Origin: Acholeplasma sp.
GTDB taxonomy: Bacteria > Bacillota_I > Bacilli_A > ML615J-28 > CAG-698
Assembly (NCBI GenBank): GCA_012838635.1
Contig: DUOW01000024.1
Span: 1 to 48,372, forward strand
Direction of reading: 5' to 3'
DNA: 48,372 nt
In this document: positions 12,802 to 32,588 of the stretch, piece by piece
How the letters are laid out: the number at the start of each line of letters is the position of its first letter
Numbering within the stretch: position 1 is the first letter of the stretch
Made by a program: the position numbers and the translations under genes
The notes under the pieces: generated by a model
Database searches by the model: none
What the model saw: the letters and a program-made list of their open reading frames with translations, nothing else
What the model was told of the DNA's origin: nothing

Positions 12802-15102
12802 CTAATAGAAAGTTTTCGGATGACGTTCAAATATAAACTCTAAATTGTCTTTCTTAAACTTTTCTTTTACTTCATCAATTAATTTACTTAATTTTTCATA
12901 ATCATTAGTTTTAATAATTAACTGCATTCCTTGATATCGCCTTGTATATTTAGGGCCTAAAATCTCACTGTCAGTAAAAATACTCCTAAATACTTTTCTA
13001 AAGTAATATGCAGCATGATATCTCTTACTATAATCACCAGCAATAATCAATCTCATTATCTCTAACTTTGGGGGATAATTTAAAGCATTTCTTTGCCTAA
13101 TTTCTTGGTAATAAAAGTTTTGATAATCATTCTTTAAACCTAAAGTAATACTATAATGATCTAAATTATATCCTTGTAAGACTAAACCTAAACCATCTTT
13201 ATTTAACACCTTAACAATATTTAAAAATAATGTTTCAGATGCACGATAATCACCATAGTTTAAAATATTATCTGAGTTAATTAAACCTACAAAACTAATA
13301 TTAGGATAATTAAGCAAATCAAAAACTAAATTAGTTCCAATAATAAAGTCAACTTTTTGCTCTTCGATTGCTAGTACTGCTTCACTATATTTACTATAGT
13401 TACTCATTGTCTCGGCATGAATTACTAAGTACTTTTTATCGGGATAATATTTCTTTAAATCTTCTTCTAAACTCTCTAATCCTAAATTGAAAAAACTTAA
13501 TTTCTTACTTCCACAGCTAGGACATTTTAAGTTAGAATAAGGAACTTTATAATCACAATAATTACAGCTCAATTCATTTTTATTTTTATTGTAAGATAAA
13601 CTAATCTTACATTTAGGACACTTAATAACTTCAGAACAATTATTACACATAACCATTTCACTATAATTCTTTTGGTTTAAAATTAAAGCAACCATCTTCT
13701 TATTATTAAAAGCTATTTGGATCTTCTCTTTTAAAGTATTAGAAATTAAAGGACTAACTCTAGCTATTTCTTTTTTTAAATCAACTAAAGCATATTTATT
13801 ATTCTCCTTTTTTAAATTCTCTAATAAAATGTAATTGTTCTTTAAATAATTATCATAATCATCAACACTTAAAGTTTCATTTACTAAAATAAGTTCTGCT
13901 TTATGATATTCCATTCTCCACTTTAAAACTTCTAAAGTCAAGAACTTTGGATTTTGTTCATTAATATAGGCTGTATCATTAGAATCAAAAATAACAATTA
14001 AACCTAATTTTTCTAAAGGTAAAAAGCTACTCGAAATTGTCCCAACAACAACATCTACATTACCTTTTTTAACTTGCATATAATTATCAAAATATTCATT
14101 ATTGCTTAATGAAGAATTAAAACAATAGATTCTTGCATTAACTAATCTTTTTTCTAAAAAATCATATACTTCAAAAGACTGAACAATTGATTTTGTTAGG
14201 ATTAAGATTTGTTTATTATCCATAATTGTTTTTGAGATTACATCTTCTAAAAACTTACACTTAAATTCTAAATCATCAGTTACTAAAAGATAAGGTTTAT
14301 TCTTATTAGCATCATATTTGGCTTTAATGTCTTGTTCTAAAGAAGTATAAGTAACATAAGAAGATTGAAATCTTTTAAGATTATCTTCTTCTTTAATAAC
14401 TTCTTTTACTTCCAAAAATCCTTCTTTTCGTAAATCATTAATTAAAAAGTGACTAGTATTAGTATTTAAACTTATCTCCTCTATTGTTAGCCCTGGATTG
14501 CAAGAAACATACTCAATAATCCTTTTTCTTTTAACTGTTAAATTTGTAGTATCTTTATTTTCACTTACATAGTAAATATTTTGATATTTATTTTTACCAT
14601 AAGTATAGTGGTTATACTCAATAGCTAAATTACCTTGTTTTAACTCCTTCGCAATTCTGCTACTATAATCAATCATTGAACTATTATATTCAATCTTCGA
14701 TTTACCTTTAAAAAGCATTGCTACATTGCTATCTAACTTTTCTAAATGAACAACTTTCAAATATTTACGATATTTAGTTTTTAAAAAAGCCGGATACATT
14801 AGATCTAAAGCAGAAACAAGTAAACTTTTTGTTTCATCAGAAATCTTCTTAGCCAGTTCTATTTGTTCTTCAGTAAGTTGTTTATCAAAATCATAAACAT
14901 CTAAAATCTCTTTGATATTTCCTGAATAAGAAGTCTCAGAGCTAATTCTAATTACATAACCAATAATTTGCCTACTTCCAAATTCAACCAATACCCTACT
15001 TCCTATATCTACATATTCTTCAAAATGCTTAGGAACCTCGTAAGTAAATAAAGTATCAGTATTAGCATTTCGAACATCAACTAACACTTCTGCGAACTTC
15101 AT
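12802..15102 (-). CDS. priA: PriA-like primosomal protein with a degenerate helicase domain
   Basis: 766 residues with the full PriA plan: N-terminal 3'-end binding domain (1-55, TLFTYEVP...VLVEFGSRQIIGYV), a winged-helix region, two helicase lobes, a zinc module and the C-terminal domain (NYPPKLEIMRLI ... EILGPKY). All four CxxC pairs survive (Cys486/489, 495/498, 513/516, 527/530). The ATPase motifs do not: the Walker A site reads VTDDLEFKCKF (274-284) with no GxGKT; the DEEH box is FDSN (372-375); SATPS is NETLS (408-412); QVAGRAGR is NIVKVLNKDG (628-637). Without these it should not hydrolyse ATP or unwind DNA. The reading frame is intact, so a structural role in loading the replicative helicase is plausible. 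It overlaps the upstream kinase gene by ATGA. Confidence 0.9.
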   Translation of the reverse strand: MKFAEVLVDVRNANTDTLFTYEVPKHFEEYVDIGSRVLVEFGSRQIIGYVIRISSETSYSGNIKEILDVYDFDKQLTEEQIELAKKISDETKSLLVSALDLMYPAFLKTKYRKYLKVVHLEKLDSNVAMLFKGKSKIEYNSSMIDYSSRIAKELKQGNLAIEYNHYTYGKNKYQNIYYVSENKDTTNLTVKRKRIIEYVSCNPGLTIEEISLNTNTSHFLINDLRKEGFLEVKEVIKEEDNLKRFQSSYVTYTSLEQDIKAKYDANKNKPYLLVTDDLEFKCKFLEDVISKTIMDNKQILILTKSIVQSFEVYDFLEKRLVNARIYCFNSSLSNNEYFDNYMQVKKGNVDVVVGTISSSFLPLEKLGLIVIFDSNDTAYINEQNPKFLTLEVLKWRMEYHKAELILVNETLSVDDYDNYLKNNYILLENLKKENNKYALVDLKKEIARVSPLISNTLKEKIQIAFNNKKMVALILNQKNYSEMVMCNNCSEVIKCPKCKISLSYNKNKNELSCNYCDYKVPYSNLKCPSCGSKKLSFFNLGLESLEEDLKKYYPDKKYLVIHAETMSNYSKYSEAVLAIEEQKVDFIIGTNLVFDLLNYPNISFVGLINSDNILNYGDYRASETLFLNIVKVLNKDGLGLVLQGYNLDHYSITLGLKNDYQNFYYQEIRQRNALNYPPKLEIMRLIIAGDYSKRYHAAYYFRKVFRSIFTDSEILGPKYTRRYQGMQLIIKTNDYEKLSKLIDEVKEKFKKDNLEFIFERHPKTFY

Positions 15103-27918: not shown

Positions 27919-28761
27919 CTAATACTTCTTTTTTTGTATTTCTTTTATTTCTTCATGCAATAGAAGATAATTTTCATACCTTGATTTTAAAATCTTTCCT
28001 TTTTCTACTGCTTCTTTGACAGCACAATTAGGTTCATTAATATGTAAACATGTTGCAAAACGGCAATTACGGCTTAACACAAAAAACTCTTTGAAAGAAT
28101 GAGCCAGAATTGTTTCATTAAACTCTTCTAAACTAATTGTCCCAAATCCTGGTGTATCCATAACTAGGCCATCTAAAACTTTATATAACTCTACATGTCT
28201 TGTAGTATGTTTACCTCTTCCTAAAGCTTGACTTATTTCTTGAGTTTTCAAATTAAAACCTAAAGTGTTTAGCAATGTAGATTTACCAACACCACTTTGA
28301 CCACTTAAAACAGAAATCTTATCCGTAAATAACCCTTTAAAGTCATTTTCTTCATTTTTAGAAAAAAAGTAAACCTTATATAAACTCTTATAATAATTAA
28401 CAATATCTAAATATATTTGCTCTTCATCTAAATCAATTTTCGAAAAGACAATTGTAATCTCTAAATCTAAATATTCATAATAGGCAATCATCTTATCAAG
28501 TAAATGCAAATTAAGATCTGGTTCTTTTAAGGAAAAAACTAAGATAACTTGATCAATGTTAGCTACACTTGGACGTAAAAGCAGGTTTTTTCGCTCCAAA
28601 ACTTTGGTAATTATATTATCTTCATCAATAATAACTCTATCACCTACATAAATATCTTGTTCTGTATGACGAAAAACACCACGAGGCTTACAAATATATT
28701 CTTTATCTTTTACTCTAACTGTATAGTCACCACTTACAAGCTTAGTTACGATACCTTCCAT
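27919..28761 (-). CDS. rsgA: Ribosome small-subunit GTPase RsgA
   Basis: Late 30S assembly GTPase. 280 residues with an N-terminal OB fold (about 1-70), then a circularly permuted GTPase: G4-like SKID (107-110, N-to-S variation), G1 GQSGVGKS (154-161), G3 DTPG (202-205). C-terminal zinc site Cys233, Cys238, His240, Cys246. Its ATG overlaps the rlmN stop (TAATG), and its SD (AAGGAGG) is encoded in the last rlmN codons. Confidence 0.96.
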   Translation of the reverse strand: MEGIVTKLVSGDYTVRVKDKEYICKPRGVFRHTEQDIYVGDRVIIDEDNIITKVLERKNLLLRPSVANIDQVILVFSLKEPDLNLHLLDKMIAYYEYLDLEITIVFSKIDLDEEQIYLDIVNYYKSLYKVYFFSKNEENDFKGLFTDKISVLSGQSGVGKSTLLNTLGFNLKTQEISQALGRGKHTTRHVELYKVLDGLVMDTPGFGTISLEEFNETILAHSFKEFFVLSRNCRFATCLHINEPNCAVKEAVEKGKILKSRYENYLLLHEEIKEIQKKKY

Positions 28762-29795
28762 TAACCCTCCTTAATTTGTTTATTTCTTAGTTGTCCGCAA
28801 GCAGCATTAATATCATGCCCTTGCTCTTTTCTTTTTGTTACATTTACATTATTTCTTTTTAAATACCTAAAAAACTCATTTACTGCCTTTTCATCACTAC
28901 GTTCAAACTTACTGCTAGTGCTATTATAAGGAATTAAATTTACATAACAATTTAATCCTGATACAAATTCTACTAAAGCTCTCGCATCTTCTAAACTATC
29001 ATTAACACCTTTTAATAAAATATATTCAATTGTAATTCTTCTATTTGTTTTCTCATAGTATTTAATAATAGCTTCTTTTAATTCTTGTAAATTATACGCT
29101 CTATTTACTGGCATATACTTACTTCTTTTTTCATCTGATGCAAAGTGAAGTGAAATTGCTAAGTTTACTTGCAAAGGAAAATTACTAAATTCTTCAATTT
29201 TAGGTGCTAAACCTACAGTACTAACGGTAATATGGCGAGAGCCAATTGCTAGTGCCTTATCATCATTAATAATTTCTAAAAACTCTAAAACATTATCGTA
29301 GTTATCAAAAGGCTCGCCAATTCCCATAACAACAACACTACTTACCTTTTCATCCTTTTTGCTTAAATCATCATTAATATACTTAACTTGTAAAACAAGT
29401 TCATCAGTTTTTAAATTTCTTTGTTTTTTAAGTAACCCTGATGCACAAAAAGCACAAGCAAAGTTACACCCAACTTGCGTTGAAACACAGAGACTATTAC
29501 CATAATCGTGTTTCATTAAAACTGTTTCAATTAAATTATCATCATAAAGTTTAAATAAATACTTAACAGTACCATCAATTGATTCTTCTTTTCTTACAAG
29601 TTCTAAACTATTTAAATAAAAGTTCCCTTTTAAAAAGTCTTTAAATTCGTTTTTTAATACTTTAATATCATCAATAGAATTTACATTTTGTCTATATAAG
29701 CCTTCATAAATTTGCACAGCTCTAAATTTTGGATGCCCATTTGCAACTAAAAACGATACTAAATTATCTCTTGAAATACCAAATAATGATCTCAT
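28761..29795 (-). CDS. rlmN: Dual-specificity 23S rRNA/tRNA adenine-C2 methyltransferase
   Basis: Radical SAM enzyme methylating A2503 of 23S rRNA and A37 of some tRNAs. 344 residues. The cluster motif is CNFACAFC (Cys110, 114, 117); the methyl-carrying cysteine near the C-terminus is Cys333 in AACGQL. Both are intact, so it should be active, unlike its upstream neighbour. It overlaps that neighbour by 4 bp (ATGA). Confidence 0.97.
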   Translation of the reverse strand: MRSLFGISRDNLVSFLVANGHPKFRAVQIYEGLYRQNVNSIDDIKVLKNEFKDFLKGNFYLNSLELVRKEESIDGTVKYLFKLYDDNLIETVLMKHDYGNSLCVSTQVGCNFACAFCASGLLKKQRNLKTDELVLQVKYINDDLSKKDEKVSSVVVMGIGEPFDNYDNVLEFLEIINDDKALAIGSRHITVSTVGLAPKIEEFSNFPLQVNLAISLHFASDEKRSKYMPVNRAYNLQELKEAIIKYYEKTNRRITIEYILLKGVNDSLEDARALVEFVSGLNCYVNLIPYNSTSSKFERSDEKAVNEFFRYLKRNNVNVTKRKEQGHDINAACGQLRNKQIKEG

Positions 29796-30871
29796 GCTAC
29801 TTTCCTTAAATAAGCTAGATAACCAATTACCTTGCTATTATCATAACTTACTTCTTTGATTAATTTATAACTAGGATTATTTTCTAAAAAGTTTGCAATT
29901 AATCTTTCATTTTCATCTTTATTAACTGTATTAGTATAGTAAACAAGCTGTCCTTCTACTTTCAATAAAGGTGAAACTTCATCTAAAACAGCTTCTTGAA
30001 TCGAAATTATCTCTTTTATTCCTGATAAACTTAATTTATATTTTAAATCTTTTTCTTTTTTATAATTAACTAAATTTGAAGAAGGACTATTTACTAAAAC
30101 AAAGTCTAAAGCTTCATCTTTAATTTCATCTTGTAATACTAAAGGTGAAATTAGAACTGGCTTGACATTCTTTTTATTTTGCTTTTTTAAATAGTGAGCA
30201 AGTTGTTTTTGTTTTTTCTTCTTATCTAAAACAGCAAATATCTTACCTTCTTTTAATTTATCACTTAGAATACTACTACTTTCTTTTGTAGCCCAAAGAT
30301 CTAAACCAACCTTAGCGTCTTCTAACTTAAACTGTCTAAGAGCTAATTTTGTTAAGTTTTGGAACTTTAAATCTTCCTCTTTTAAGATTTTAGTAACATC
30401 ACTATAACTATAATCTTTTAATAAATAACTAACAAGCCATAAAGGATAAGAATATTCAATACTTAAACGATCAATAGCAATTAAGTTTGCTAAGTCTCTT
30501 GTTTTATTTTTCGAGAAGTTTCTTAATGTTCTCTTTACAAAATTGCTAACACCTTTATTTTTTAAAACAGCAACTTTACCTATTTCTTCTATTACTAATT
30601 CTAAATTCTCTTGACGATAAATTAGTAAATAAATAGAAATTAATAGTAAGTTTTTCACATCATCTTTGGTTTTTTTATAAAGGTAAGGCTCTAAATAATA
30701 CTCTAGTTCTAAATAGTGATTAATTACTCCTAAAACAAGATCTTCTAACTTTTCCTTTTCACTTTCTGAAAAACGGTATTTAGAATAAACCTTCTTTAAC
30801 TCTCTATTTAAACTAAAGTCTCTGTTCATAACTTTAGTAATTAAATCTACTGCTATTTTATAGATATTCAT
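29792..30871 (-). CDS. RsmB-like protein lacking catalytic and SAM-binding residues
   Basis: 359 residues, collinear with RsmB, which makes m5C967 in 16S rRNA: an N-terminal NusB-like helical domain (about 1-135) and a C-terminal Rossmann methyltransferase domain. The position between a PHP gene and rlmN-rsgA matches the Firmicute rsmB locus. But motif I (DxCAAPGGKT) is DLWATKESSS (191-200), the motif IV Cys is Ser264 (SPSSN for APCSG), and the catalytic motif VI Cys is Asn314 (YYTNT for YSTCT). The PLLKxxGxLVYxT frame around them is retained. So it is probably not a methyltransferase; an RNA-binding or assembly role is possible. There is no frameshift and ATGA overlaps exist on both sides. 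Confidence 0.85.
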   Translation of the reverse strand: MNIYKIAVDLITKVMNRDFSLNRELKKVYSKYRFSESEKEKLEDLVLGVINHYLELEYYLEPYLYKKTKDDVKNLLLISIYLLIYRQENLELVIEEIGKVAVLKNKGVSNFVKRTLRNFSKNKTRDLANLIAIDRLSIEYSYPLWLVSYLLKDYSYSDVTKILKEEDLKFQNLTKLALRQFKLEDAKVGLDLWATKESSSILSDKLKEGKIFAVLDKKKKQKQLAHYLKKQNKKNVKPVLISPLVLQDEIKDEALDFVLVNSPSSNLVNYKKEKDLKYKLSLSGIKEIISIQEAVLDEVSPLLKVEGQLVYYTNTVNKDENERLIANFLENNPSYKLIKEVSYDNSKVIGYLAYLRKVA

Positions 30872-31680
30872 AAGCCTAACCTTTCTAAAAAGTTTGTTAA
30901 GTAAGGCTCCTTTAAACTAACACTACCGATATTACCATGTTTATAATCATCAAAACGATGAAAATCTGATCCAGCAGTTACTAATAAATTATTTTCTTTA
31001 CAAAATTTTAAATAATCATTAATTTGTTCTTCTGTTGCATCAGGATAAAATACTTCTATTCCGTCAATTCCATCTTTTAAAAATTCTTCAACTTTATTTC
31101 TTTTATATAAAACAGGATGAGCTAAAATAGCAATTCCGCCTTCATCCTTAATTGCTTTTATTCCTTCAGCGCTTGTTATTTTTGTTGTTGGGACATAGGC
31201 AGGACAATCTTCACCAATCAATTTTTCAAAGATTTCTGCTCTTGTATAAGGATAACCTGCCTCCAAAATCAAATTAGCAATATTAAATCTTGTAACTGCC
31301 GCATTATCATCAAGCTTTTTTAAATCTATTTCTATTTCAAAATATTCTTTTAATCTTCTTTGTATTTCTTCTGCTCTTATGCTTCTTGCATCTTGCATTC
31401 TCTTTAAGAACTCATCCATCTTAAGAATCTTTTTTTTAGAATCAAAATATCCTAAAATATGAACTGATTCTTTATTGTTTACAGTTGAAAGTTCAAAACC
31501 ATATATTCCAACAAGACCATAATCAGGTGCTTTATCTACAGCTTCTACTGTCCCTGTAATACAGTCATGATCAGTTATCGAAAAGTATTTAACATTTGCC
31601 TTTTTTACTTCTTCTAATATTTCTTCAACACTTAAAGAACCATCAGAATAAGTAGTATGCATGTGAAAATCTCCGCGCAT
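30868..31680 (-). CDS. PHP-domain phosphoesterase (RNase AM/YciV type)
   Basis: 270 residues. Trinuclear metal site residues are all visible: His6 and His8 (DFHMHTTYSDG), Asp13, Asp37/His38 (TDHD), Glu63 (GFELS), His74, His188 (ILAHPV), Asp239 and His241 (GSDFH). Relatives dephosphorylate 3',5'-bisphosphonucleotides and trim 5' ends of rRNA and short RNAs. It overlaps the RsmB-like gene by ATGA and lies 2 bp after the unknown first gene. The operon's rRNA theme favours an RNA-end or nucleotide role; substrate not determined. Confidence 0.88.
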   Translation of the reverse strand: MRGDFHMHTTYSDGSLSVEEILEEVKKANVKYFSITDHDCITGTVEAVDKAPDYGLVGIYGFELSTVNNKESVHILGYFDSKKKILKMDEFLKRMQDARSIRAEEIQRRLKEYFEIEIDLKKLDDNAAVTRFNIANLILEAGYPYTRAEIFEKLIGEDCPAYVPTTKITSAEGIKAIKDEGGIAILAHPVLYKRNKVEEFLKDGIDGIEVFYPDATEEQINDYLKFCKENNLLVTAGSDFHRFDDYKHGNIGSVSLKEPYLTNFLERLGL

Positions 31681-31682
31681 CT

Positions 31683-32570
31683 TTATCTCTCGCCTCCTAA
31701 CTCATAGAAAATTAAGACAACAAAGTATCTTTTTTCTAGCTTCTGATATAATTCACTAAATTGTAAGTAGTCATATAGCTCGACATTTGATGTCGTTTTC
31801 ATAACAAATTTAAACTTATTAAAAAGTGAAATCCATTCTTTAAACTCAAAATTTAAAATAGCATCACTTTTCAAAAAGTAAGAATAATTATAAGTCTTAG
31901 CATAAGACTTATTCTTACCTTTCTCAAAACAACTTACTAAAGCCTTAACGGTTTTCACAATCAAATCTCCACTATAATAATAAGTATCATAATAAGCATA
32001 TTCTAAGTTATTGTAAGATCTAATTAATTCATTTACTTCTCTAGCTAAGCCTTCTAGCTCATAAGCTTTTTTATCTTTAATAGCCGCAAGTGATGTCATC
32101 TTTATATTACGAAAATAAGCATCATATAAATAATTCAAAATCTCATTAGCTTCTTTAAAATTCTTTTCATGAACTCTTATTTTATCAATAATTACATCTA
32201 CTTGATTAAGATTGGCTTTATCTATTGCATCATATTCTTCTTTTAAAGTTTTACTTACTTCTTTTAATAAATTAGCACTACTTGCAACTTTTTCCAAATT
32301 AAGTTTAAACTTTAAATCTTTTTTAATTCCTTCTTGAAAAAGGATAATTGTATAAAGGCGTTGTAAAAAGGGTTCTAAAGATGAATCAAACTCATTAATA
32401 AACTTACCAATCTTTTCATTCTTTTGGTCTAAAGAATAATCTAAATAAGGATCAACATCTTTTTTAATCTCTCTCATTTCATGATAAAAATCACTCACTT
32501 TTGCTTGAGATTTGTTTTTTTTAGGTTCTCCAGATAATGTAATTCCAATTATTTCTTTATTCCTCTTCAT
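31683..32570 (-). CDS. Unrecognised helical protein, first gene of the rsmB-like/rlmN operon
   Basis: 295 residues from ATG 32570 (AGGTGG 5-6 nt upstream; the GTG three codons earlier overlaps that site). No family recognised. No signal peptide. The composition is Lys/Glu/Leu/Tyr-rich and looks almost wholly alpha-helical, with likely coiled-coil around 95-160 and a tyrosine-rich stretch near 190-200 (YAYYDTYYYSGD). The C-terminal YFVVLIFYELGGER is hydrophobic but short. Transcribed from an extended -10 promoter ahead of seven downstream genes. Confidence 0.75.
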   Translation of the reverse strand: MKRNKEIIGITLSGEPKKNKSQAKVSDFYHEMREIKKDVDPYLDYSLDQKNEKIGKFINEFDSSLEPFLQRLYTIILFQEGIKKDLKFKLNLEKVASSANLLKEVSKTLKEEYDAIDKANLNQVDVIIDKIRVHEKNFKEANEILNYLYDAYFRNIKMTSLAAIKDKKAYELEGLAREVNELIRSYNNLEYAYYDTYYYSGDLIVKTVKALVSCFEKGKNKSYAKTYNYSYFLKSDAILNFEFKEWISLFNKFKFVMKTTSNVELYDYLQFSELYQKLEKRYFVVLIFYELGGER

Positions 32571-32588
32571 TAAAACCACCTATATAAT

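Follow-up and report, generated by a model that had tools for sequence, protein, structure and literature searches.

The closest described relative of the protein considered here is RsmB (Fmu/Sun) of Escherichia coli, the 16S rRNA m5C967 methyltransferase (1sqf/1sqg). Together, RsmB and RsmD were reported to lower, in vitro, the accessibility of h30 in a misfolded class of nascent E. coli 16S rRNA, with or without SAM, and sequestration of the h31 loop by the two proteins was proposed (PMC13004024). Deletion of E. coli rsmB leads to more 17S precursor (PMC7056703). An assembly role independent of methylation was described for NSUN4 (PMC3916286). Catalytically inactive RlmB and RlmL still aid assembly, inactive RlmN and RluC give no rescue (PMC11194073), and a KsgA that has lost catalysis does harm in E. 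coli (PMC9032327); the results for KsgA, RlmN and RluC imply that an rRNA modification enzyme without activity does not always remain useful. It is a long-standing question, addressed mainly via laboratory point mutants and deletions, whether cells keep rRNA methyltransferases because of the methyl mark or because of the time that these enzymes spend on the nascent ribosome; a natural RsmB that lacks the active site and is held by selection is a direct test case. Searches of the open-licence literature turned up neither a naturally inactive RsmB nor an NSUN pseudoenzyme, and the portion of PMC6409601 consulted contains no statement that NSUN7 is an inactive member. A survey of mollicutes, as far as its available text goes, gives RsmB as absent from the Acholeplasma/Anaeroplasma/phytoplasma group, from which four species were sampled (PMC4014445); a homologue is present here in 27 of 28 genomes of the family and 42 of 43 of the order, a set that may or may not include those four species.

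The rsmB locus and its protein

The window, i.e., the whole stretch of 48,372 nucleotides that was analysed, carries an RsmB orthologue that stands at its own locus and has turned into a pseudoenzyme, in the sense that catalytic motifs are absent and the sequence is under purifying selection (Table 1). Its reading frame is open and overlaps by 4 bases at both ends, the stop with the start of rlmN and the start with the stop of an upstream gene that we take, from its sequence, to encode a PHP-domain protein. The initial annotation had placed the gene at the usual rsmB locus, and the comparison with a second genus agrees with this. The gene order around rsmB is identical in the window genome (G000) and in the genome of that second genus (G005), where it runs iPGM, enolase, two ORFs that have no match in the window, a relative of a 298-aa protein, PHP, rsmB, rlmN, rsgA, rpe and thiN (presumed names, given to these neighbours from their sequences). 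The 298-aa protein is encoded in the window at 31683-32579 on the minus strand, beside the PHP gene and rsmB; its position is conserved in G005 and it shares 42% identity over 139 residues with its counterpart there.

Table 1. Features of the stripped rsmB gene and its immediate neighbours, in window coordinates
Feature	Coordinates	Strand	Remarks
Stripped RsmB homologue	29792..30871	(-)	359 aa, ATG start, stop included
NusB-like N1 domain and linker helices	30377..30871	(-)	residues 1-165; Pfam NusB match residues 5-120
Short linker at the N2 place of canonical relatives	30311..30376	(-)	residues 166-187; about 55 aa deleted
Methyltransferase-like domain	29795..30310	(-)	residues 188-359; seven strands in model
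Ruined motif I (SAM loop) LDLWATKESSS	30272..30304	(-)	residues 190-200
Ser264, motif IV Cys position	30080..30082	(-)	alignment with relatives
Asn314, motif VI Cys position	29930..29932	(-)	alignment with relatives
Invariant run starting at former motif IV	29996..30085	(-)	residues 263-292; G000 vs. G001
rlmN	28761..29795	(-)	overlaps rsmB stop; conserved neighbour in G005 genus
PHP-domain gene, directly upstream of rsmB	30868..31680	(-)	conserved neighbour in G005 genus

Domain searches and a predicted model bear out the initial annotation, according to which the NusB-like domain and the beta-strands of the methyltransferase part are kept. PF01029 (NusB) matches the window protein with 32.2 bits (cut-off 23.1) and PF01189 (Methyltr_RsmB-F) with 57.9 bits (cut-off 27); the NCBIfam RsmB models are its best matches, yet it stays under their cut-offs, both for the RsmB equivalog NF011494 (152.2 bits vs. 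319) and for TIGR00563 (96.5 bits vs. 269.05). In the AlphaFold2 model (11 sequences; pLDDT 88.3, pTM 0.78) all seven methyltransferase-fold strands are present, and a comparison with Foldseek and VIA-align put the two E. coli RsmB entries on top, the model fitting 1sqf with Z 31.7 and rmsd 4.0 A over 347 residues. The model of the G005 protein (pLDDT 89.7) resembles E. coli RsmB with Z 32.3 over 353 residues, and for these predictions the alignments contained canonical proteins, which helped the fold prediction. In the structure comparison that the initial annotation had called for, the predicted fold of the stripped protein thus agrees with that of E. coli RsmB. The protein was also considered as a stand-alone NusB (about 140 aa), which was rejected on account of its 359 aa and its methyltransferase domain, and as a replacement of NusB, which was rejected because a separate NusB-domain frame is present in G000 (134 aa), in G001, a genome of the same genus (142 aa), and in G005 (144 aa).

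Loss of the active site and its spread among relatives

When the protein is aligned with its relatives, residues 191-200 form DLWATKESSS, the remnant of motif I, in which DxCAAPGxK has been turned into DLWATKESS; PCSG of motif IV reads PSSN, with Ser264 at the Cys position, and STCT of motif VI reads YTNT, with Asn314 at the Cys position. The description of a protein that has neither catalytic cysteines nor a SAM loop is therefore right at all three sites, but more is gone than was claimed, since the Asp residues of motifs II, III and IV are also replaced and a segment of about 55 aa between the NusB-like and methyltransferase domains, the N2 segment, is missing. Both cysteines of motifs IV and VI are kept in 41 of the 41 canonical rows that were aligned, namely 22 from family f1, 14 from f2 and 5 from other Firmicutes. 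These counts leave out G008 (gene split over two contigs), G022 (no match), L085 (the second RsmB/F-type protein of G033), G041 (likewise split over two contigs, the pieces showing PCSG and STCT) and L027, a 137-aa fragment from G002 that is also left out of the trees and in which PCSG of motif IV and STCT of motif VI are intact.

The loss is unevenly spread over the protein. Among columns at least 95% conserved in the 22 canonical rows of the family, the window genus retains 21 of 31 within the N-terminal part (reference-row residues 1-173), 0 of 9 in N2, 6 of 19 among the SAM and catalytic motifs and 15 of 33 elsewhere in the methyltransferase domain, and G005 keeps 20, 1, 8 and 15, respectively; within the NusB-like domain the conserved positions Q83, V99 and N114 (reference-row numbering) are also changed. 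The two stripped lineages share identical Cys-to-Ser (motif IV) and Cys-to-Asn (motif VI) changes, G005 keeps the motif II Asp, and the replacements in motif I differ between them. The kept, predicted methyltransferase fold might be taken as a sign of an enzyme that is still active by way of other residues or another SAM loop, but this is very improbable, since motif I, the Asp of motifs II/III and IV and both cysteines have changed together in the window genus, and since the motif I replacements are not the same in the two lineages. Judged from its sequence, the loss of catalysis by the window RsmB is close to certain, and we infer that the protein cannot methylate C967 of 16S rRNA.

The stripped form was seen in three genomes: G000, G001 (81% identity) and G005 (34%). 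A class-wide search covered 395 genomes, 211 of them with a match, and among the matches listed only these three fit the stripped profile in one full-length run, so that more distant stripped forms may exist. The altered residues, whose conservation in relatives had been proposed as a check, are thus paralleled in G001 and G005, which carry the same losses, and the agreement of independent MAGs from the same genus (81%) and from another genus means that neither chance nor one bad assembly accounts for them. The MAGs consist of 63, about 120 and about 60 contigs, a fragmentation to which an artefact of assembly or binning, or a contaminating paralogue beside a missed canonical gene, could appeal; such an explanation is hardly credible in view of the agreement of independent MAGs, the contradicting copy in the same genus, the conserved gene order around the gene and the one PF01189 match per genome. 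In G000, G001 and G005 this match is the stripped gene, and in five canonical genomes included in the same search it is the intact gene. On the strength of the single match per genome, a canonical RsmB/RsmF missed elsewhere in the genome was rejected.

The PF01189 profile search found no second RsmB/RsmF-type gene in G000, G001 or G005, so that m5C967 is probably absent from the three stripped genomes, and domain-based annotation would wrongly call it present. A search with RF00177 found no 16S gene in these three (16S was found in 3 of 28 genomes of the family). The 16S of G010, a genome of the family with canonical RsmB, has the normal ...TTCGATGCAACGCG..., the positions of which we take to be G966 and C967. 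RsmD is present in 8 of 8 genomes searched, that of G000 keeping DLFGGSG and DPPY, and KsgA of G000 is intact, with IGPGMG and NLPY kept. KsgA (PF00398) was not found in G005 (95% complete), and its match in G001 (88% complete) is weak and under cut-off. G001 also contains a second rsmB start at the end of another contig (L004 1-132, G001:C66), which encodes 44 aa with 73% identity to the window protein, has ~93% DNA identity to the main copy and is accompanied by the upstream PHP gene; it probably stems from a close strain or species that was binned together with G001 and in which the gene start is kept as well. Within its first 200 bases, contig C46 (L003 1-500) contains an inverted repeat that resembles an assembly artefact.

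Selection on the stripped gene and the number of losses

Purifying selection still acts on the stripped RsmB. Its dN/dS is 0.129, with 0.086 for residues 1-165 and 0.178 for residues 166-359, and seven neighbouring genes have 0.057-0.143, all values being NG86 estimates from the G000/G001 pair only (for G005 a close relative was not available). No frameshift or stop was found in rsmB of G000, G001 and G005. That the gene is no product of random decay, as was first proposed, is upheld by the unbroken copies in relatives, the dN/dS of 0.13 and the retained fold and synteny, and a decaying pseudogene was rejected for the window genus, where an 81% identical copy is unbroken. Within the degenerate half, residues 263-292 are the longest identical run (30 residues identical between G000 and G001, 6 synonymous and 0 amino-acid changes; shuffle p about 0.02). 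Conservation is highest in the NusB-like part, and there is modest evidence that the other half has a specially protected RNA surface. Net charge gives no consistent signal, the G000 protein having +12 and the G005 protein -3.

The dN of stripped rsmB relative to rlmN is 1.84, compared with 0.60-1.08 in five same-genus canonical pairs, a comparison of one stripped pair with five (dS is not estimable for G012/G013). It could thus be thought that the use of the protein was lost and that the frame persists as a relaxed remnant, chiefly owing to the overlap of its ends with two translated neighbours; a dN about twice the rlmN-based expectation from the five canonical pairs, the long branches in the trees and the 4-base overlaps at both gene ends are in line with this. 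Relaxation to that degree is improbable, however, given dN/dS of 0.13 overall and 0.18 even in the degenerate half, the absence of stops and frameshifts in three genomes and the confident full-length predicted models; moreover, an overlap requires an open end and no conserved sequence of 359 residues.

The trees of RsmB itself place the three stripped proteins together, with support of 100/99 for 44 rows, 96/91 for the N-terminal part and 90/98 for 25 family rows, for which the program warned that long branches meet. The genomes are arranged differently by other genes. In a tree of 11 neighbouring genes (4094 columns from 16 genomes, out of 28 in the family, G016 having only 27% of columns filled), G010 is sister to the window genus with full SH-aLRT support, and the three stripped genomes as a clade are rejected (log-likelihood 213 lower, p-AU 1.5e-68). 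RpoB, encoded elsewhere in the genome, joins G010 and the window genus with 98/97, and none of 200 bootstrap trees groups the stripped three (p-AU 0.045). As the sister of the window genus in the 11-gene and RpoB trees has a normal RsmB, two losses of catalysis are probable. The RsmB data do not clearly reject the window genus with G010 (p-AU 0.049 for the whole protein, 0.084 for the N-terminal and 0.174 for the methyltransferase part). When either stripped lineage is removed from the RsmB tree, the other shifts to a different group, as would be expected if long branches attract; the exact position that it has in the 11-gene tree is recovered for neither lineage.

We thus favour two separate losses of catalysis, with moderate confidence. 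The grouping of the three in the RsmB gene tree (100/99) speaks against them, and the alternative is a single loss, after which the gene was transferred into the same locus; the identical Cys-to-Ser and Cys-to-Asn changes of both lineages favour this alternative. Differential loss of a stripped paralogue is a less likely course, since both forms occur together in no examined genome and the stripped gene lies at the normal locus.

The window PriA (12802-15102, minus strand) was considered as a companion of the stripped RsmB. It is without the Walker A GSGKT and the DEEH box and keeps the zinc-site cysteines, and from the motifs it looks like a family-wide PriA pseudohelicase; a PriA pseudohelicase was already published for Deinococcus (PMC4504706). 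The link that the initial annotation had drawn between the two stripped enzymes receives no support as a common event: GxGKT is missing in 12 of 12 PriA rows aligned from family f1, genomes with normal RsmB included, and a single event that stripped both proteins was rejected, the PriA loss being family-wide and separate.

A possible role without methylation

Retention by selection despite the lost active site suggests that RsmB has a second job, probably in aiding ribosome folding. The explanation that we prefer, at about even odds, is that the stripped protein has been preserved because it takes part in 30S assembly near helix 31 in a way that does not depend on methylation. RsmB would have a job that does not require methylation, and the gene would be retained for it: together with RsmD the stripped protein would transiently bind nascent 16S rRNA around helix 31, and this binding would keep the 3' major domain from misfolding in the course of 30S assembly. 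If catalysis was lost at least twice in the family, the binding job would be the part that remained under selection once methylation had been given up. The earlier idea of a repurposed assembly factor would fit the literature on SAM-independent action of RsmB and RsmD, and a stripped RsmB beside an intact RsmD would fit a methylation-independent assembly role as well. Counting against such a role are the methyltransferase half, which is less well kept than the N-terminal part, the evolution of rsmB, which is faster than that of rlmN relative to canonical pairs, and the charge of -3 of the G005 protein, which gives no sign of stronger RNA binding. In canonical enzymes N2 lies on the substrate side, and with its deletion here the binding of h31 may be lost too.

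The missing N2, together with the N-terminal part being the best kept and having the lowest dN/dS (0.086), would be expected if the protein had acquired a new function away from 16S h31, in which the NusB-like domain acts by RNA or protein binding, e.g., on a different transcript or together with transcription factors, and the methyltransferase half serves as a scaffold. This is rather unlikely, though less so than a relaxed remnant: a separate NusB is present in G000, G001 and G005, so NusB is not being replaced, the methyltransferase half keeps the seven-strand fold and the 30-residue invariant run, and locus and neighbours are unchanged. The minimal conserved surface of the stripped RsmB should reveal what its non-catalytic job requires. 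More tentatively, RsmB may have turned into a pseudoenzyme on two independent occasions within a single family of small-genome relatives of Acholeplasmatales, each time losing N2, the SAM loop and both cysteines under continued selection, and the decisive function of RsmB may then be one that is independent of methylation and needs neither SAM, cysteines nor N2. If the two-loss reading is true, it would be evidence from nature that the function of RsmB that matters is the one independent of methylation.

Among known systems, E. coli RsmB (1sqf/1sqg) shares with the window protein the NusB-like N1 domain, the methyltransferase fold and the adjoining rlmN, but the window protein is without the SAM loop, the catalytic cysteines and N2 and lies under the NCBIfam cut-off. 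The PriA pseudohelicase of Deinococcus radiodurans is, as reported, likewise a conserved enzyme that was kept without catalysis and retained a binding role, although in a different protein and pathway (PMC4504706). The part of NSUN4-MTERF4 in mitoribosome assembly resembles the role proposed here in that an NSUN-family protein acts without need of methylation; NSUN4, however, is described as a still active methyltransferase that works with MTERF4 on the large subunit (PMC3916286). RlmB and RlmL of E. coli are alike in that an inactive rRNA modification enzyme still supports assembly, yet those reported are laboratory mutants that act on 23S rRNA and belong to other families (PMC11194073).
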